In this document: one piece after another, positions 1 to 11,330 of the stretch | How positions within the stretch are numbered: the first letter of the stretch is position 1 | How the letters are laid out: each line of letters starts with the position of its first letter | Source of the DNA: an uncultured Eubacteriales bacterium | Lineage (GTDB): Bacteria; Bacillota; Clostridia; Oscillospirales; CAG-272 | Length of the DNA stretch: 11,369 nt | Assembly: GCA_949878535.1 (NCBI GenBank) | Contig: CATLAS010000011.1 | Span: forward strand, 1-11,369 | Reading direction: 5' to 3' | Position numbers and translations under genes: made by a program | Notes under the pieces: model-generated | Told to the model about the DNA's origin: nothing | The model's database searches: none | What the model saw: the letters and a program-made list of their open reading frames with translations, nothing else

Positions 1-495
1 ACGAATCCACAGAGGACGACCCATTTCCTCCGTCAGTCGCAAAAAGCGCAGCACCGTTTGCAGATTCCCCTTACAATGCTTTATATAATCCTCGGCAGTA
101 GTAAATTTTAAATCTGCAATCACAAGATCTGTATATTGAAGCACGGCACGCGCGCCGTCCAAATCAGCCGAACCTGCTGTACAAATGGCAGTGTGCAGAG
201 ATTGTTCTTTTGCCGCCCGCAAAAGCTCGGCAGCAAACGCACTTTGCAGCAGCGGCTCGCCGCCAGACAGGGTGATCCCACCCGCATCGCCGAAATAGGG
301 ACTACACCGCAATGCCTTTGCAATAATTTCGTCTACAGTATATAAAGAACCTTCCCGCAGATTCCAGGTTTCCGGATTGTGACAATACGCGCACCGCAGA
401 GCGCATCCCTGGAAAAAGACCACAAAACGAATACCCGGCCCCTCTAAAGTACCAAAAGTTTGAAAGGCGTTGATTCGTCCTTTATTTTCAGACAC
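1..495 (-). CDS. pflA: Pyruvate formate-lyase activating enzyme (radical SAM), C-terminus cut by window edge
   Basis: PflA uses S-adenosylmethionine and a [4Fe-4S] cluster to abstract a hydrogen from the glycine of PflB, making the glycyl radical. The visible 165 codons are open to base 1. They begin MSENKGRINAFQTFGTLEGP and carry the radical-SAM cysteines CALRCAYC (residues 31-38, CX3CX2C), an SGGEPLLQ motif (GGEP at 78-81), DLVIADLKF (DLK at 128-130) and a final RPLWIR. The family is usually about 240-250 aa, so roughly 80 residues lie outside the window. I chose the GTG at 495-493 because AAGGAG at 507-502 sits 6 nt upstream; the ATG at 500 would leave no spacer. That RBS overlaps the pflB stop codon (506-508), so the genes are co-transcribed and probably translationally coupled. 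Identity is secure; the exact start is less so. Confidence 0.95.
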   Translation of the reverse strand, partial: MSENKGRINAFQTFGTLEGPGIRFVVFFQGCALRCAYCHNPETWNLREGSLYTVDEIIAKALRCSPYFGDAGGITLSGGEPLLQSAFAAELLRAAKEQSLHTAICTAGSADLDGARAVLQYTDLVIADLKFTTAEDYIKHCKGNLQTVLRFLRLTEEMGRPLWIR

Positions 496-505
496 AGCAT
501 TCTCC

Positions 506-2728
506 TTATACCGCATGATGGAAGGTACGTTGAATCACTTCCCGCTGCTGTTCTCTGCTCAGCTTATGAAAATTAACAGCATAGCCAGACACACGAATCG
601 TCAGATTAGGGTATTTATCCGGATCATTGTAAGCCTCTATGAGCATTTCCCGATTCATTACATTCACATTTAAATGATGCGCACCCTGTCCAAAATATCC
701 GTCCAGCATGGCACACAGATTTGCATATCGCTCCTGCTCTGTTTTGCCCAAAGCATCCGGAATAATGGAGAAGGTGTTGGAGATGCCGTCTTTACAATGT
801 GCATATGGAATTTTCGCTACGGAGTTCAGCGCGGCAATCGCACCGTTCTTTTCCCTTCCATGCATGGGGTTTGCGCCGGGAGCAAATGCCTCGCCGACTT
901 TTCTGCCGTCCGGTGTGGAGCCGGTTTTCTTACCATACACTACATTGGAAGTAATCGTCAAAACTGACAAGGTGTGCTCTGCATTCTTATACAGAGGATG
1001 CTGCTGCAATGCCTTGTGGAACAGTTCGATTTGTCCGGCTGCAATGCTGTCAACTCGATCATCGTCGTTGCCGTATGCGGGATATTCCCCTTCTACAGTG
1101 AAATCACGAATTAAACCGGTGGTTTCATCCCGCACGCATTTTACGCGGGCATATTTGATTGCAGAAAGTGAATCCGCCAGCACGCTAAGTCCCGCAACAC
1201 CGAACGCCATATACCGGTGCACATCGGTATCATGAAGCGCCATCTGGGTTTTCTCATAGGCATACTTGTCATGCATATAGTGAATGACATTCATCGTATT
1301 TACATAGGTTTTCGCAAGCCAGTCGCGGTACAAATCCAATCTTTTGCAAACCGCCTCATAATCCAGCACTTCATCCGGATAAGGCTCCGCCTCGGGACCT
1401 ACCTGAATATTTTTCATTTCATCCCGCCCGCCGTTGAGTGCGAGAAGCAGCAGCTTTGCCAGATTAGCGCGCGCACCGAAGAACTGCATATCCTTACCCA
1501 CACGCATAGCAGAAACACAACATGCAATCGCATAATCGTCCCCGTAATACGGACGCATGAGATCATCATTTTCATATTGAATTGCACAGGTGCCACAGGA
1601 AACAGACGCGCAATATTTTTTGAAAGAATCGGGAAGCGCGCGGGACCACAAAATCGTAAGGTTCGGTTCCGGCGCAGCGCCCAGATTGTGCAACGTATGC
1701 AGAAAACGATAAGATGTTTTTGTAACGAGCGTCCGTCCATCCTCGCCCATGCCGCCGACTGCTTCGGTAATCCACATGGGATCCCCGCCAAACAGCTCGT
1801 TGTAAGCAGGTGTACGCAAATGCCGCGCCATACGCAGCTTCATAACAAACTGGTCGATCAGCTCCTGCGCGCCTTCTTCTGTAAGGATTCCTGCCTGAAT
1901 GTCCCGTTCAATATAAATATCCAAAAAGGTAGACACTCTGCCAAGGCTCATTGCAGCGCCGTTTTGCTCCTTGATTGCGCCCAAATATCCAAAGTATACC
2001 CACTGCACCGCTTCCCGGGCATTCTTAGCGGGGCCGGAAATATCACATCCGTACATAGCAGCCATATCTTTCAGATATCCAAGGAATCGGATTTGCTGGT
2101 ACAGTTCCTCACTCAAACGGATGCTGTCCACATCCATAGCTCCCTCGCCTACTGCTTTTTTATCCTTCTGTTTTTCCTCGATCAGCTTATCTATACCGTA
2201 CAGGGCAACCCTTCTGTAGTCTCCGATAATTCTGCCGCGGCCGTATGCATCCGGTAGTCCTGTTATAATACCACAGCGTCTGGCGTTGCGCATTTCTTCT
2301 GTATAAACCCGATACACGCCATCATTGTGCGTGGTTCTGTACTGGAATTCATCTTCCACAATATCGGAAAGCGTATACCCGTATGCAGCGCAAGCTTCCC
2401 GTGCCATTTTGATTCCACCGAACGGGTTGACACCGCGGCAGAGCGGTGCATCCGTCTGCAATCCTACGATCAGTTCATTTTCCTGATCCAAATAACCGGG
2501 CGCATAGTTCAAAAGGGAGGATACTGTGTCTGTTTTAATATCCAATACGCCGCCTTTTTCCCGCTCCTGCGCAAGAAGCGCGTCCAGCTTTTCTTTCAGT
2601 CCGATGGTTCTCTGTGTCGGTTCAGCCAAAAAAGACGCGTCCCCTGTGTAGGGGGTATAATTTTTCTGGATAAAATCCCGCACATCAATTTTCGTGTTCC
2701 AGACACCTTCATTGAAATTTTTGAACAT
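506..2728 (-). CDS. pflB: Formate C-acetyltransferase (pyruvate formate-lyase), glycyl radical enzyme
   Basis: This cytosolic enzyme splits pyruvate with CoA into acetyl-CoA and formate in anaerobic fermentation. The protein has 740 residues, close to the usual length of about 750. It carries the adjacent active-site cysteines in [16 protein letters not shown] (Cys403-Cys404), the conserved [10 protein letters not shown] (about 384-393), [11 protein letters not shown] (about 415-425), and the C-terminal glycyl radical loop RVSGYAVNF (712-720, radical on Gly715). The ATG at 2728 is preceded by GGGAGG with a 7-nt spacer. It is followed 10 nt later by pflA, its activase. No good promoter is seen in the 32 bp between the start and the repeat element at 2763-2909. 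The best promoter lies far upstream at 3526-3552, in front of a ZTP riboswitch, so expression is probably controlled by ZTP through a long leader. All catalytic residues are present. Confidence 0.98.
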
Positions 2729-2762
2729 ATCTATTCCTCCCTGAATCTATTATTTTCCATAA

Positions 2763-2909
2763 AGCCCCCCTTGTGCAAAGGGGGGTGGCGCGGCTCTGCC
2801 GCGACGGAGGGATTGTCTGCTATACTACCGATTTATAGATTCTGCAAAATGATAGCATAAACAATCCCTCACCCGCTACGCGGGAGCCCCCTTTGCACAA
2901 GGGGGCCTT
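2763..2909. repeat. Palindromic intergenic element, copy R1 (about 147 bp)
   Basis: Each end forms its own hairpin: CCCCCCTTGTGCAAAGGGGG at the left and CCCCCTTTGCACAAGGGGG at the right, and the two ends are also inverted repeats of each other. Inside these lie a second inverted pair, GAGGGATTGT (about 2807-2816) and ACAATCCCTC (2861-2870), and a less conserved core with TGCTATA and GATAGCAT. No ORF with protein character is present. It looks like a MITE-like or large REP-type element of the kind scattered in gut clostridial genomes. No transposase is in the window. The element ends about 34 bp upstream of the pflB start. Confidence 0.85.
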
Positions 2910-3201
2910 TCCCCAATTCTTCAAGTCTCCCCCAACAAGGTGGATGGCACGGCCAAGCGTAGCGATCGTGACGGGGGATTGTTATTATACTACCGATTTA
3001 CAGATCCTGCGAAATGACAGTATAGACAATCCCTCACCCGCTACGCGGGAGCCCCCTTTGCACAAGGGGGCCTTTCCCCAATTCTTTAAGTCTCCCCCAA
3101 CAAGGTGGATGGCACGGCCAAGCGTAGCGATCGTGACGGGGGATTGTTTGTTATACTACCGATTTACAGATCCTGCGAAATGACAGTATAGACAATCCCT
3201 C
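2871..3201. repeat. Tandem duplication, period 165-166 bp, of element plus flank
   Basis: The stretch 2871-3035 is repeated almost without change at 3036-3201. For example, CACAAGGGGG occurs at 2896 and 3061, TCTCCCCCAACAAGG at 2926 and 3091, and ACAATCCCTC at 2861, 3026 and 3192. The two copies differ by a T/C near 2921/3086 and by a 1-bp indel in the core (GTTATTATAC against GTTTGTTATAC). The unit joins the right arm of one element, a short linker (CCCCAATTCTT) and the body of the next. This points to recent unequal crossing-over or replication slippage, not two independent insertions. Confidence 0.85.
2925..3073. repeat. Palindromic intergenic element, copy R2
   Basis: Same family and orientation as R1. 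The right arm CCCCCTTTGCACAAGGGGG is intact, and the inner inverted pair GGGGGATTGT / ACAATCCCTC is clear. The left arm has decayed to TCTCCCCCAACAAGGTGGAT. A small internal hairpin, AAGCGTAGCGATCG, lies in the left half, and CCCGCTACGCGGG forms a hairpin in the right half. It is nearly identical to R3. Confidence 0.8.
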
Positions 3202-3257
3202 ACCCGCCTCGCGAGAGCACCCTAGGATCCGCTACGCGGCTCCAGCACAAGGGAGCC
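3090..3257. repeat. Palindromic intergenic element, copy R3, with an extra palindrome in the right arm
   Basis: The left half matches R2 almost base for base. The right arm differs. After ACAATCCCTCACCCG it reads CTCGCGAGAGCACCCT, and the hairpin tip is replaced by AGGATCCGCTACGCGGCTCC (3224-3243) before CACAAGGGAGCC closes the arm. The same inserted motif occurs at 11152-11171 and, inverted, at 11341-11361. Confidence 0.75.
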
Positions 3258-3357
3258 TTTTAATACAAAGTGGAGCTGCGTCGTGCCCTCTTTGCTGGGG
3301 GAGCCTTTTGAACCGGGGAAACTGTGCCGTACTCCCTTTGCAAAGGTGGCTAATGAA
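3258..3357. repeat. Decayed fragments of the palindromic element arms
   Basis: Pieces such as CCTCTTTGCTGGGGGAGCCTTTT, GGGGAAACTGTGCCG and ACTCCCTTTGCAAAGGTGGC resemble degenerate element arms. No inner inverted pair or core is recognisable and no gene is present. With R1-R3 they make up nearly all the DNA between the riboswitch terminator and pflB. Confidence 0.5.
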
Positions 3358-3391
3358 GTTTGCTCTCCCACTTATTCCCATCCAAATTATA

Positions 3392-3425
3392 CAAAAAGGG
3401 CAGTCTCCATATTGAGAGACTGCCC
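3392..3425 (-). terminator. Intrinsic terminator, expression platform of the ZTP riboswitch
   Basis: On the minus strand GGGCAGTCTC (3425-3416) pairs perfectly with GAGACTGCCC (3407-3398) around an 8-nt loop, followed by TTTTT (3397-3393) and TGT. The first bases of the stem (GGGC) are also the last conserved bases of the aptamer, so folding of the aptamer and of the terminator should exclude each other. It is also the first terminator met by transcripts reading through from the glycosidase gene at 3603-5429. Confidence 0.9.
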
Positions 3426-3500
3426 AGACGGTCGGCGCACCGCTTTTTACTTCATGTGGTAAACTCCACCGGCGGGCCCCCGCCGTCCGTCAGTAATAAA
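3420..3500 (-). promoter_or_regulatory. ZTP riboswitch (pfl motif) in the pflB leader
   Basis: Read on the minus strand, the parts occur in the order known for the ZTP/pfl RNA. A weak P1 pairs TTTATTACT (3500-3492) with AGTAAAAAG (3451-3443). Then comes ACTGACGG, a GC-rich extra hairpin (GGCGG/CCGCC, about 3484-3471), the GTGG-AGTTTA-CCAC hairpin (3469-3456), and the highly conserved 3' end GCCGACCGTCTGGGCA (3436-3421), one base from the usual CCGxCCGCCUGGGC. GACGGACGGCG is complementary to CGCCGACCGTC except for one mismatch. ZTP riboswitches sense the purine intermediate AICAR phosphates that build up when 10-formyl-THF is short, and they are named after pfl genes. Here ligand binding should prevent the overlapping terminator and turn pflBA on. 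Recognition is from memory of the consensus; the context supports it strongly. Confidence 0.85.
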
Positions 3501-3525
3501 AAGCGTTATTCGGTACTGTCTATAG

Positions 3526-3552
3526 CTTATACTGAAAATCGGTTTTTGTCAA
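3526..3552 (-). promoter_or_regulatory. Promoter for the riboswitch-pflBA transcript
   Basis: A perfect -35 TTGACA (3552-3547) is followed by TATAAG (3531-3526) 15 bp later; reading TAAGCT as the -10 gives 17 bp. Transcription would start near 3515-3520, about 20 nt before the first riboswitch stem. An inverted repeat CCATAA-GAA-TTATGG (3563-3577) lies just upstream of the -35 and could be a protein site. The leader to the pflB ATG would be about 790 nt. Confidence 0.65.
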
Positions 3553-6859: not shown

Positions 6860-6902
6860 TGCACAATTTTAAAAATGCCCCAACAAAGGTAGCGCGGCGC
6901 AG

Positions 6903-7259
6903 GCTCTTCTAAACTTCGCAAGCCTCCCCCCAGCAAAGGAAACTGTCTCGGAGCATCCTAATTCTTCTGTAAGGTTCACCTGTGTAAAAGGAACTGTCGC
7001 GATGCACTCTAATTCTTCTATATGGTTCCCCCCAGTAAAGGGAGCTGTCACGAAGCACTCTAATTTTTCTTTATGGCTTCCCCCAGTAAAGGGAGCTGTC
7101 ACGAAGCACTCTAATTCTTCTTTATGGCTTCCCCCAGTAAAGGGAGCTGTCACGAAGCACTCTAATTCTTCTTTATGGCTCCCCCCAGTAAAGGGAGCTG
7201 TCACGAAGCACTCTAATTCTTCTTTATGGCTCCCTTGTGCAAAGGGAGCTGTCGCGATG
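6903..7259. repeat. Tandem array of seven 51-bp units derived from a palindromic element arm
   Basis: Units start at 6903, 6954, 7005, 7056, 7107, 7158 and 7209, exactly 51 bp apart. Each holds a flank (CACTCTAATTCTTCTTTAT) and a hairpin arm (GGCTYCCCCCAGTAAAGGGAGCT followed by GTCACGAAG). The units from 7056 on are nearly identical, the first two are badly decayed, and the last runs straight into the full element at 7228-7374, sharing its left arm. There are no spacers between units, so it is not CRISPR. As 51 is a multiple of three, it yields open frames with 17-residue repeats on both strands, which I regard as accidental. Confidence 0.9.
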
Positions 7260-7374
7260 CGACTGAGGGATTGTTTATGCTATCATTTTGCAGGATTTAT
7301 AAATTGACAGTATGTATGGACAATCCCTCCGAGTTTTGCTGCGCAAAACCCACCTCCCTTTACACAAGGGAGGC
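7228..7374. repeat. Palindromic intergenic element, copy R5, inverted relative to R1
   Basis: Left arm GGCTCCCTTGTGCAAAGGGAGCT (7228-7250), right arm CCTCCCTTTACACAAGGGAGG (7353-7373), and inner pair GAGGGATTGT (7265-7274) / ACAATCCCTC (7320-7329). The right half carries the hairpin GTTTTGC-TGC-GCAAAAC. The reverse complement of the core shares CTGCAAAATGATAGCATAAA with R1, so this copy points the other way. It ends about 130 bp before the ktrB promoter. Confidence 0.85.
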
Positions 7375-7576: not shown

Positions 7577-8980
7577 ATGTTCGGTAAAACCTTAAAAAAA
7601 CGCACATTTCATTTGTCCGCCTCCCAAACAATCATGGCAGGATTTGCCTGTATGATCTTTATTGGCGCACTTTTGCTGAATCTTCCCGCTGCCAGCAGAT
7701 CAGGGGAAAGTGTTGGCTTTATCAATGCATTGTTTACCGCCACCTCTGCTAACTGCGTTACTGGATTGATTGTCGTGAACACGATGGCCCACTGGACTTT
7801 GTTCGGGAAAGTGGTAATTCTTTTGCTGATTCAGGTCGGCGGGCTTGGATTTATGACTCTGATCACAATTGCTATGGTTTTGATCCGCCGGAAAATCTCC
7901 CTGAGAAGTCGGCAAACAATCCAGGCATCCTTTAATCAGGAAAGTATCGGCGGCATGGTCCGTCTGGTGCGAAATGTTGTTTTAATAACCCTCTTTTTTG
8001 AAATAGTCGGCGCACTTTTGCTGGCGTTTTCCTTTTGGATCAATGGTTCCATGTCTATCCCGCGTGCTTTAGGACAGGGTATATTTCACGCAATTTCTGC
8101 TTTTTGTAATGCCGGATTTGACAACATCGGACCAGAAGGGCTGATGCCATTTCAAAAAAATATTCCTGTCAATCTTATTATAATGATATTGATTATTGCA
8201 GGCGGCATCGGTTTTACCGTTTGGGGGGAAATTGCACGAATCCTGCACAACAAATCAAAACAATCCCTGCGCGTTCGTTTGCGACGGTTCAGTCTGCACA
8301 GCAAAATTGTTTTAGCAGTCACTGGCGTTCTGATCGTGGGCGGTGCCATCTTTTTCCTAATTGTGGAATGGTCCAACCCGCGCACACTGGGCGGCATGCC
8401 GATCTGGGAAAAAATCCAGGCTTCCCTGTTTCAGTCGGTAACGCTGCGCACTGCCGGTTTCAATACCATCCCACAGGATGGACTGACGGAAATTTCCCAG
8501 TTCTTTTCCTGCATTCTCATGCTGATTGGCGGATCGCCCGCCGGTACCGCCGGAGGTATCAAAACGGTTACTGTTGGCGTAATCATCGTCTCCATGATTT
8601 CCGTAATCTGCGGCAGAAACAAAGTGGAGGCATTTGGTCGCTCACTCCCGCTGGATCTGCTGCAAAAGGCATTAAGTGTTGTTTCTATCATGCTGTCAGT
8701 AGTATTTCTTTCTACCGTACTGCTGCATTTTACAGAACTGAGCAACCCTTATCCGCACACATTTTTAGACTTACTGTTTGAAACATGTTCGGCTGCGGGT
8801 ACTGTTGGTGTAACCACAGGAATCACCCCCCATCTGTCTGACGCTGGGAAAATTGTTCTTATTATTTGTATGTATATCGGGCGGCTCAGTCCAATCACGG
8901 TAGTAGTCGCATTGAATAAAAAACTGCGCGCAGGCGATGACAGCATTGGGCTGCCGTCAGAGCGTGTAATTATCGGTTAA
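7577..8980 (+). CDS. ktrB: K+ channel-like subunit of a Ktr/Trk potassium uptake system
   Basis: A 467-residue membrane protein of the Trk/Ktr/HKT superfamily that conducts K+ (with Na+ or H+ dependence in relatives). All four pore loops are visible with their selectivity-filter glycines: ATSANCVTGL (Gly63), ISAFCNAGF (Gly180), VTLRTAGFNT (Gly294) and SAAGTVGVTTG (Gly411). The conserved gating loop IGGSPAGTAGGIKT (317-330) is present. The length fits KtrB/TrkG better than the longer TrkH. AGAGGG lies 6 nt before the ATG. It is followed by its cytosolic gating partner at 9019, so the pair is a complete uptake system. Naming ktrB or trkH is a matter of convention; the single-RCK partner favours Ktr. 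Confidence 0.95.
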   Translation: MFGKTLKKRTFHLSASQTIMAGFACMIFIGALLLNLPAASRSGESVGFINALFTATSANCVTGLIVVNTMAHWTLFGKVVILLLIQVGGLGFMTLITIAMVLIRRKISLRSRQTIQASFNQESIGGMVRLVRNVVLITLFFEIVGALLLAFSFWINGSMSIPRALGQGIFHAISAFCNAGFDNIGPEGLMPFQKNIPVNLIIMILIIAGGIGFTVWGEIARILHNKSKQSLRVRLRRFSLHSKIVLAVTGVLIVGGAIFFLIVEWSNPRTLGGMPIWEKIQASLFQSVTLRTAGFNTIPQDGLTEISQFFSCILMLIGGSPAGTAGGIKTVTVGVIIVSMISVICGRNKVEAFGRSLPLDLLQKALSVVSIMLSVVFLSTVLLHFTELSNPYPHTFLDLLFETCSAAGTVGVTTGITPHLSDAGKIVLIICMYIGRLSPITVVVALNKKLRAGDDSIGLPSERVIIG

Positions 8981-9018
8981 AAGTGATTCTGCCCTTCGGG
9001 CAAAAAACGGAGTTTACT

Positions 9019-9666
9019 ATGGCAAATAAAAAAAATAATAAAAATTTTGCAGTTCTTGGGTTGGGTCATTTCGGCATGAGCATTATACAAACCCTCTCAG
9101 AACTGGACGTCAATATTTTAGCATGCGACCGGGACGAGGCAAAATTGCAGCTTGCTACAGAATATGCCATCCATGTAGTTCGTGCAGACATTGCGGATGA
9201 AAACGCACTGGCACGGCTGGGTCTGGGTAATTTTGACGTAATTGTCCTTGCTGTCGGCAAAGATTTTGAAGCATCACAAATTGCAACCATGATTGCAAAG
9301 GAAAACGGTGCAAAACATGTTATTGTGAAAGCACGCAACCTGCGGCAGAAAAAGATTTTGGAAAGCATCGGCGCAGACGAAGTCATTTTACCAGAACATG
9401 AAATCGGCGCAAAATTGGCGCGACGTCTGGCAAGTCCTAATATTATGGATATATTGGACGATTCTGATTTCTATACAATCACAGAAATGCATCCAATGGA
9501 CGAATGGCTGAACCAGACCATCCATGAGTCGGATATCCGCCATAAGCACAATATCACAGTATTGGCAATTCGTCGGGGAGACAAGTTTATAATCCCTGTT
9601 TCACCGGCCGAAGTATTGACAGAACAGGATGTTCTGCTTGTTTTCAGCGAGAAAAAACGAAAGTGA
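9019..9666 (+). CDS. ktrA: Ktr/Trk gating subunit with RCK_N (NAD/ATP-binding) and TrkA_C domains
   Basis: A 215-residue cytosolic protein. The Rossmann-type RCK_N domain starts at FAVLGLGHFGMS with GLGHFG (14-19) as the GxGxxG nucleotide loop and an acidic residue (Asp37) after the second strand. The last 70 or so residues, ending VSPAEVLTEQDVLLVFSEKK, are a TrkA_C domain, which in relatives binds c-di-AMP or other ligands. Rings of this subunit open and close the KtrB pore in response to ATP/ADP. I chose the ATG at 9019, with GGAG 6 nt upstream. A GTG at 8983 would add 12 residues without a good RBS. It follows ktrB by 38 bp; the small hairpin TGCCC-TTC-GGGCA (8990-9002) lies in the gap. 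Confidence 0.93.
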   Translation: MANKKNNKNFAVLGLGHFGMSIIQTLSELDVNILACDRDEAKLQLATEYAIHVVRADIADENALARLGLGNFDVIVLAVGKDFEASQIATMIAKENGAKHVIVKARNLRQKKILESIGADEVILPEHEIGAKLARRLASPNIMDILDDSDFYTITEMHPMDEWLNQTIHESDIRHKHNITVLAIRRGDKFIIPVSPAEVLTEQDVLLVFSEKKRK

Positions 9667-9705
9667 ATCAACAAACGTTGGATTTTACATTGTGAAAGGA
9701 GTGCT

Positions 9706-10380
9706 ATGAGTCAGATCAAACCGGCACTGCAGGACTTTTTTCCCTTTTGGGATAAGCTGGACCCAGAGCATCAAAAGGAATTAACGAAACATTGCGGATT
9801 GCAGCATTTCCGTAAGGGCGACACAATCGAAACCAAAGACAGGCAATGTATGGGATTGCTTTTAATTCAAACAGGACAGCTGCGCGCGCTGATCTTGTCG
9901 GAAGGCGGAAAGGAAATCACACTGTATCGGCTATACGAATTAGACATTTGCCTTTTTTCCGCTGCCTGCATTATGCGCAACATTCAGTTTGATATACAAA
10001 TCGAGGTAGAGGCAGATACCGATGCGTTTGTTCTTCCGCCTGTATTATATGATCGCCTATCCAGAGAATCAGCGCTTATGGCAAACTACACAAATGAGCT
10101 AATGGCGTCCCGTTTTTCCAACGTGATGTGGACATTGGAGCAGATTTTATTCAAAAGCTTGGACAGCCGTCTGGCAGGTGCATTACTGGAGCGGGCTGCC
10201 GATGAAAGCACAGCAGAACTGCATGTAACCCATGAATGGTTAGCCCGAGATTTAGGCACTGCCCGGGAGGTAATCACCCGTATGCTGAAATATTTCCGGG
10301 ATGAAGGCTGGATTGAACTTTCCAGGGGATGTGTTCGTCTGCGGAATGAGAAGAAGCTGCGGGAAATTGCAAATCAGTAA
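9706..10380 (+). CDS. Crp/Fnr-family transcriptional regulator
   Basis: A 224-residue regulator with an N-terminal cyclic-nucleotide-like sensor barrel (about 10-125), a dimer helix (about 127-160) and a C-terminal winged helix. The recognition helix is TAREVITRMLKYF (185-197). Its Arg187-Glu188-x3-Arg192 matches the contact residues Arg180, Glu181 and Arg185 of E. coli CRP, unlike FNR, so TGTGA half-sites are expected. The sensor carries Cys82 and Cys88 in ELDICLFSAACIM, plus Cys30 and Cys48. There is no N-terminal Fe-S cysteine cluster of FNR type, and I do not see the full cAMP-binding signature, so the effector is unknown. AAAGGAG lies 4 nt before the ATG. It starts 39 bp after ktrA and may be read from the ktr promoter. 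A matching site lies 16 bp after its stop, before ferritin. Confidence 0.9.
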   Translation: MSQIKPALQDFFPFWDKLDPEHQKELTKHCGLQHFRKGDTIETKDRQCMGLLLIQTGQLRALILSEGGKEITLYRLYELDICLFSAACIMRNIQFDIQIEVEADTDAFVLPPVLYDRLSRESALMANYTNELMASRFSNVMWTLEQILFKSLDSRLAGALLERAADESTAELHVTHEWLARDLGTAREVITRMLKYFRDEGWIELSRGCVRLRNEKKLREIANQ

Positions 10381-10395
10381 AACATATAAAAGATT

Positions 10396-10437
10396 TGTGA
10401 CTTTATCACAGTCCGGACACAAATGCAGTACTATAAT
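10396..10437 (+). promoter_or_regulatory. Ferritin promoter with a Crp-type site in class II position
   Basis: A perfect -10 TATAAT (10432-10437) has no acceptable -35 at 16-18 bp. In its place TGTGA-CTTTA-TCACA (10396-10410) is centred at 10403, about 41 bp before the expected start near 10444. That is the position of class II Crp/Fnr activator sites. The 5-bp spacer is one shorter than in the E. coli CRP site. The regulator encoded directly upstream is the natural candidate. Confidence 0.65.
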
Positions 10438-10474
10438 AAATCAAAAATATATTATTACATAAAGGAGAAATATC

Positions 10475-10987
10475 ATGGATAATAAAGTAAAAGACTTATT
10501 GAACGAGCAAATTATGAAGGAATTCTATTCGGCGTATCTATATCTGGATATGGCAAATTACTACGGCGACGAAGGTCTCGAAGGCTTCCAGAACTGGTTT
10601 GAAATTCAAGCGCAGGAGGAGCGGGATCACGCAATGCTGATGCGTACATATCTGATGAACAACGGCGAAAAAGTTACGCTGCTGCCCATTGACGCACCTG
10701 CAGAACAGTATGCTTCCTTTGATGCACCGCTGAAAAAGACAATGGAGCATGAAAAAACTGTTACCGAATCTATACACACAATTTTCGCAGCAGCAAACGA
10801 AATTCATGATTACCGTGCAATGGAATTTCTCAATTGGTTTATCAAAGAACAGGCTGAAGAAGAGAAAAATGCAGGAGATCTGATTAAAAAATATCAGTTA
10901 TTCGGCACAGATGCAAAAGGCTTGTATCAGTTAGATCAGGAGCTGAAAGCCCGGGTATATTCTGCACCATCTCTCATTTTGGATTAA
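10475..10987 (+). CDS. ftnA: Ferritin (non-haem, bacterial FtnA type)
   Basis: A 170-residue four-helix protein that oxidises Fe2+ and stores it as ferric mineral inside a 24-subunit shell, also limiting iron-driven oxidative damage. The ferroxidase ligands known from E. coli FtnA are all in place one residue earlier: Glu16, Tyr23, Glu49, His52, Glu93, Gln126 and Glu129. They sit in EFYSAYLYLDMA, QAQEERDHA and IKEQAEEEKNA. There is no haem-ligating methionine context of bacterioferritin, and length is normal. AAAGGAG lies 7-8 nt before the ATG. It has its own promoter after the Crp-type regulator gene and ends in a strong terminator, so it forms a single-gene unit, probably under that regulator. 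Confidence 0.96.
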   Translation: MDNKVKDLLNEQIMKEFYSAYLYLDMANYYGDEGLEGFQNWFEIQAQEERDHAMLMRTYLMNNGEKVTLLPIDAPAEQYASFDAPLKKTMEHEKTVTESIHTIFAAANEIHDYRAMEFLNWFIKEQAEEEKNAGDLIKKYQLFGTDAKGLYQLDQELKARVYSAPSLILD

Positions 10988-11139: not shown

Positions 11140-11310
11140 GCCTCCCATGTGAGGATCCGCTGCGCGGCTCCATAGGGAGGTGGATCGCCCAAGCGTAGCG
11201 ATCGAGACGGAAGGATTGTCTAAGTGATACTGTCGGTTTGAAGATCCTGCAAATGATAGTATAACAATCCCCCACCCGCTACGCGGGAGCCCCCTTTGCA
11301 CAAGGGGGCC
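11140..11310. repeat. Palindromic intergenic element, copy R6, with an extra palindrome in the left arm
   Basis: Same orientation as R1. The right arm GCCCCCTTTGCACAAGGGGGC (11289-11309) is followed by TTTTTATTT and could end plus-strand transcription. The inner pair is AAGGATTGT / ACAATCCCC, and the core shares GATCCTGCAAATGATAGTATA with other copies. The left arm, normally CCTCCCTTGTGCAAAGGGAGG, has its tip replaced by a longer palindromic insert containing GAGGATCCGCTGCGCGGCTC (11151-11170). Confidence 0.8.
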
Positions 11311-11330
11311 TTTTTATTTGTGCTGTGCGA

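Follow-up and report, generated by a model that had tools for sequence, protein, structure and literature searches.

A ZMP/ZTP (pfl) riboswitch with an additional J1/2 hairpin ahead of pflB-pflA in an uncultured member of the Clostridia

Riboswitches of the ZTP class are believed to respond to low one-carbon folate by turning on a formate-making enzyme. The minus strand ahead of pflB in an uncultured Eubacteriales genome (contig CATLAS010000011.1, of which the whole stretch analyzed, 11,369 nt, is referred to here as the window) raises the question of whether it carries this switch and what to make of a GC-rich hairpin inside it, which had been put forward as a possible unusual variant. A cmscan search of the window against Rfam gave RF01750 as the only match above cut-off, on the minus strand at 3507-3415 (52.2 bits against a gathering cut-off of 39 bits, E value of 2.3e-6, model positions 1-86 of 86). 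The element is a ZMP/ZTP (pfl) riboswitch aptamer, as the original prediction had it; the covariance-model check proposed there returned a match rather than none, and the segment GCCGACCGTCTGGGCA was found as claimed, in the P3 block at 3436-3422. Its limit at 3500 was too short, the aptamer extending to 3507. The features of the locus are as follows.

3547-3552, minus strand: -35 element TTGACA, invariant in the eight aligned pflB leaders
3524-3529, minus strand: probable -10 element TAAGCT at a spacing of 17 nt, with letters and spacing the same in 8/8
3415-3507, minus strand: ZMP/ZTP riboswitch aptamer (RF01750), full length by cmscan, with the -35 and -10 upstream
3441-3505, minus strand: P1 helix, 3505-3497 with 3449-3441, enclosing J1/2, the extra hairpin and P2 (minimum-energy fold of the 5' domain)
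3487-3491, minus strand: J1/2 pseudoknot strand GACGG, pairing with CCGTC at 3431-3427 (co-change among relatives)
3470-3485, minus strand: extra J1/2 hairpin CGGCGG-GGGC-CCGCCG, six of six pairs in 8/8 orthologues
3456-3469, minus strand: P2 hairpin GTGG-AGTTTA-CCAC (Rfam alignment and 5'-domain fold)
3422-3436, minus strand: P3 with the pseudoknot loop, GCCGACCGTCTGGGC (Rfam alignment; conserved in 8/8 orthologues)
3393-3425, minus strand: intrinsic terminator, an 11-pair stem at 3425-3398 and then TTTTT at 3397-3393, conserved in orthologues
2729-3392, minus strand: long leader from terminator to pflB, with dispersed-repeat copies at 2821-2983, 2986-3148 and 3139-3223 (repeat matches; gaps in orthologues)
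506-2728, minus strand: pflB, formate C-acetyltransferase, 740 aa (TIGR01255, 1168.3 bits, cut-off 994.2; Pfam PFL-like and Gly_radical)
1-516, minus strand: pflA, PFL-activating radical-SAM protein, open at the window end (TIGR02493, 174.8 bits, short of the cut-off of 231.75; model positions 1-162 of 235)

The predicted gene order, with pflB first downstream and then pflA, was borne out, pflB scoring above its family cut-off and the truncated pflA matching the PFLA model below it. Upstream, on the same strand, lies a gene for a DUF2961 protein, followed on the opposite strand by an MFS transporter. Farther away, window 7577-10987 holds TrkH-type and TrkA-like potassium uptake genes and then a Crp/Fnr-type regulator, of which the TrkH match alone is over its cut-off; at the end of this stretch (10475-10987) there is a ferritin-like protein with a match below cut-off. 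A tandem repeat, MTAPFTGGSHKEELECF repeated, is visible in the listed open reading frames (ORFs) at 6869-7204, which look spurious.

The conserved core of the class, CUGRCGG and CCGNCUGGGC, is intact in the RF01750 alignment and in eight leaders, and the conserved P3 end CUGGGC is present in the same alignment and orthologues. The P1-J1/2-P2 helix-junction-helix was the minimum-energy fold of the isolated 5' domain in all seven pflB-type sequences folded (the eighth, L015, was outside the set), and the extra hairpin appeared in that fold with P1 and P2 in 7/7. When aptamer and terminator were folded together under a pseudoknot-free energy model, the preferred fold lacked P1, and GGACGG, from the end of J1/2 and the hairpin arm, paired with CCGUCU. 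Apart from the extra small hairpin the riboswitch is ordinary, a standard ZTP riboswitch ahead of pflBA, that is, a known class with a known target gene.

Of the consensus promoter predicted just upstream, the -35 half stood, being a perfect TTGACA, while the -10 is probably TAAGCT, far from consensus, with three of six positions matching TATAAT. An alternative -10, TATAAG at 15 nt, is retained in just four of the eight orthologues and was rejected. A promoter scan with spacings of 16-18 nt listed no site at 3552-3524; its sole minus-strand site upstream of the aptamer was at 3670-3642 (9/12), within the end of the upstream ORF.

The terminator stem, GGGCAGTCTCT/GGAGACTGCCC at 3425-3398, has 10 Watson-Crick pairs and one U-G (-20.0 kcal/mol). 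It reuses the final GGGC of the aptamer as described in the original prediction: the stem starts with the GGGC at which the P3 core closes, and these shared bases are invariant in 8/8 orthologues. On paper the Rfam match, which runs to 3415, and the terminator overlap by 11 nt, but the model's two outermost P3 positions are unpaired here. Without the GGGC/GCCC pairs the stem would be worth -7.4 instead of -20.0 kcal/mol and would end 4 nt short of the T run, a weakening and displacement that would account for the loss of termination when P3 is held. From the shared GGGC bases we infer that terminator and aptamer are mutually exclusive.

Promoter, aptamer and terminator are common to eight same-genus pflB leaders, which were chosen for having the extra hairpin. 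Over these, 98.9% of the cells of 35 named pairs were paired and four pairs showed two-sided change, against 39-56% and 0 or 1 in slid controls, and four of five structure measures beat nearly all shuffles (reached by 1 to 3 of 500). The fifth, further pair types, numbered six in this alignment and was not in excess (shuffle average, 5.5; reached by 265/500). Three terminator pairs had two-sided change, each in one sequence, and all three non-pairing cells belonged to the innermost terminator pair. One of the six hairpin pairs varied (G-C/A-U/G-U). P1, P2 and the pseudoknot did not vary, and therefore this comparison does not test them.

For the pseudoknot, with GACGG/CCGUC forming five pairs invariantly in 8/8 pflB orthologues, we used a wider set of 113 loci (27 from the genus, 62 from the wider family and 24 from the pattern scan described below) in which the two strands were captured independently. 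The result was 98 GACG/CGUC, 10 GGCG/CGCC and one GGCG/CGUC (L088, with a G-U pair), besides one locus, L022, with GACG/CGUC plus a second, chance match; 3/113 were unparsed. Judged by these strands, the second pair of the predicted pseudoknot shows two-sided change (A-U in 98 loci, G-C in 10, G-U in 1). A J1/2-L3 pseudoknot is described for a ZMP riboswitch in PMC7337938. GACGG occurs twice here, overlapping (3491-3487 and 3487-3483), which offers a second possible register for the pseudoknot strand. This register, the one used by the pseudoknot-free fold, is present in only 4/8 orthologues and is therefore not kept. An extension of the pseudoknot through the 5' arm of the hairpin (GACGG-A-CGGCG with CGCCG-A-CCGUC) was also discarded, four of the eight orthologues reading CAGCG and not CGGCG.

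The RF01750 family was present in all 17 same-genus genomes, at 27 loci. By reading of the ORFs, the downstream genes were pflB in 10, purE in 16 and a FolT-like ECF component gene in one; protein families were tested at the window and at L002, L008 and L013 only. L002 (G000:C96:1016-1117) is a second riboswitch in the same genome, ahead of purE-purC (196.2 and 262.7 bits, both over cut-off), with a different J1/2 hairpin. Downstream of L008, the FolT family score of 53.7 bits fell short of the cut-off (60), and that of Pfam ECF_trnsprt, 44.9, exceeded its own (30.7); a 474-aa piece of the PFL at L013 scored 715.7 bits, less than the 994.2 required of the full-length protein. With pflB-pflA here and the purE-purC copy in the same genome, the riboswitch precedes purine and formyl-folate genes, as expected for the class. 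Among 196 genomes drawn from the wider family, 140 had an RF01750 match, 131 of them over cut-off.

We consider it very likely that the element, with its aptamer, terminator overlap, conservation and neighboring genes, is a riboswitch of the ZMP/ZTP (pfl) class that controls pflB-pflA as a transcriptional ON switch; its ligand, ON direction and folding order are assigned by analogy with characterized members. The transcript would start slightly downstream of 3524, and P1, the J1/2 hairpin and P2 would fold first, P3 and the GACGG/CCGUC pseudoknot after them. Build-up of ZMP/ZTP at a shortage of 10-formyl-THF would stabilize P3 and the pseudoknot and keep GGGC off the downstream GCCC, leaving only the upper terminator stem, 4 nt from the U tract, so that polymerase would read into pflB. 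Free of ligand, the full 11-pair stem would form and transcription would end at 3397-3393. The formate made by PFL could then refill 10-formyl-THF. In outline, this agrees with the mechanism published for members from Thermosinus carboxydivorans and Clostridium beijerinckii (PMC7337938, PMC10085676).

The extra hairpin, 16 nt long, follows the pseudoknot strand and precedes P2; in the alignment to the Rfam model it shows as 12 inserted positions. By eye, a J1/2 hairpin is present at 19 of the 27 loci of the genus (8/10 pflB, 11/16 purE and 0/1 other), L003 and L006 being natural pflB switches that lack it, and the purE-switch hairpins of the genus lie at the same place with a sequence different from the pflB type. 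Outside the genus, 62 family loci were read, 30 among the best-scoring and 32 hand-picked for a span of at least 88 among the matches listed; five of the 59 parsed (all except L030, L034 and L045) have such a hairpin by eye (L028, L072, L079, L084 and L089).

A pattern scan of genome contigs matched 113 loci, with titles listed for 80 and P3-like text downstream in 30. L096, L107, L158 and L186 were dropped by eye alone as chance matches in probable coding sequence; L148 and L172 were left out as true ZTP switches matched out of register. The scan gave, from other genomes, 24 loci over the RF01750 cut-off with 12-40 nt between CGG and P2, among which L114, L124 and L150 repeat the inserts of L079, L028 and L072. 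Among the matches listed with titles (18 of the 24), 14 are Lachnospiraceae (one a Lachnospira) and four other Clostridia. The pattern requires a GTGG/CCAC P2 plus an insert, may omit records near the genome of the window, and is so restrictive that it yields no frequency of J1/2 inserts. Against their own mononucleotide shuffles, which are a weaker control than dinucleotide ones, 34 of 35 distinct inserts folded at the 5% level or better, and the one that failed was the out-of-register L148/L172 match; the inserts of L002, L021-L027, L084 and L089 are outside the 35. The L002 hairpin is in the minimum-energy fold, but with a z score of -1.44 (14/200 shuffles as good).

The predicted hairpin is thus real, with its six pairs in 8/8 orthologues; its description as an unusual variant should be toned down, since J1/2 hairpins recur in other Clostridia, which also rules out that it is unique to the window. 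It is, to judge from these occurrences, a recurrent peripheral helix of ZTP switches. The text passages searched from the ZTP riboswitch literature (PMC2864571, PMC7266159, PMC7337938, PMC10085676 and PMC12191101) nowhere mention such a hairpin in J1/2. As a tentative generalization, which we hold to be rather doubtful, Clostridia ZTP riboswitches may repeatedly carry an added J1/2 helix that helps the aptamer to fold or tunes it. Such a helix would probably have arisen several times, given that a single genome has different ones in its pflB and purE copies.

Dispersed repeats fill much of the leader, and pflB therefore starts 669 nt past the terminator, 416 of these (2808-3223) being repeat copies. 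Counted from where the aptamer match ends, the start codon of pflB lies at position 687 here, 600 in G002, 382 in G016 and 47 to 111 in the five others. The repeat gave 65 matches, some partial, in 1.2 Mb of this incomplete genome (40 of 186 candidates scored) and was found in 8/17 genus genomes, though in two of these it amounted to no more than 1 or 3 weak matches. In G002 the gap before pflB likewise contains a copy (C89:8003-8092), and in G016 there is, by eye, a similar stretch. The repeat is dispersed and hairpin-forming, with a unit of ca. 90 nt and a spacing of 165 nt in the leader, seen in the window at 2761-3260, 7228-7313 and 11178-11313. On its minus strand the leader contains a single weak terminator-like site (3217-3197) and, facing pflB, two that resemble promoters, at 3013-2984 (TTCGCA-18-TATAAT, 10/12) and 2777-2749 (9/12). 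Repeats have accumulated between riboswitch and gene without visible damage to the switch, aptamer and terminator being intact in all three long-leader orthologues of the eight (G000, G002 and G016).

The aptamer and terminator might be intact and yet have little effect, if pflB were mainly transcribed from promoters in the inserted repeats. The length of the leader and its approximately three repeat copies speak for this, and the two promoter-like sites could feed pflB past the switch. However, the long-leader orthologues keep the aptamer and terminator undamaged, and the TATAAT of the leader site reads TATAAC and TATAGC in the other two window copies and TATAGC in the G016 copy before pflB, so that the site is not kept; the excess of such sites in a scan of both strands is weak (four against 1.5 expected). 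We regard this bypass as unlikely. That the variant binds a ligand other than ZMP/ZTP is far less probable still: the junction carrying the pseudoknot strand is enlarged, but the conserved core is intact and the associated genes belong to purine and formyl-folate metabolism. Control of pflB-pflA by a ZMP/ZTP ON switch is the preferred reading.

Within that reading, the J1/2 hairpin might itself be under selection, as a quick-folding stem that frees the pseudoknot strand, stacks on P2 and tunes the ligand response. Consistent with this, it is kept in all eight hairpin-bearing pflB orthologues with a G-C/A-U/G-U switch, nearly all distinct inserts (34/35) match or surpass the top 5% of their mononucleotide shuffles in folding, and 11/16 genus purE switches have, by eye, a differently sequenced hairpin in the same place. 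Yet just one of the six pairs varies among orthologues that were aligned because they bear the hairpin, 2/10 pflB and 5/16 purE switches of the genus do without it, and an insertion tolerated at the junction may survive only if it is self-folding, with no further function. On balance we lean against selection, while taking it as a serious possibility. Since some natural aptamers have a J1/2 hairpin and others do not, they could be compared to see whether peripheral helices tune ZTP switches.

The locus confirms the namesake arrangement, in which a ZTP switch precedes pfl, for a genus of Clostridia represented here by genome sequences alone. The association with pfl genes and the expected ligand-raised expression were published in 2010 (Weinberg 2010, PMC2864571), and the work of Kim 2015 on the ZMP/ZTP riboswitch is summarized in PMC7266159. 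As these sources present the class (RF01750), P1, J1/2, P2, P3, the pseudoknot, an overlapping terminator and pfl/pur targets are common to it and to this locus, whose ON logic would follow that of the class; relative to the RF01750 model, the switch here has the 16-nt J1/2 hairpin and an aptamer linker five positions shorter. The available description of the T. carboxydivorans ZMP riboswitch (PMC7337938) has the J1/2-L3 pseudoknot and terminator capture of P3 residues, as here; its pseudoknot consists of G-C pairs, whereas GACGG/CCGUC includes one A-U, and that part of the text was not found to mention a J1/2 hairpin, which is present here. According to a 2025 preprint, variations of the ZTP fold include inserted paired elements, the one in C. 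beijerinckii lying between sub-domains (PMC12191101). The C. beijerinckii pfl ZTP riboswitch (PMC10085676, PMC12191101) is alike in class, in its transcriptional terminator and in being a pfl switch. There the added pairing separates the two sub-domains, whereas the hairpin here is in J1/2, and the invading strand continues through the pseudoknot, whereas the terminator here takes only the GGGC of P3.
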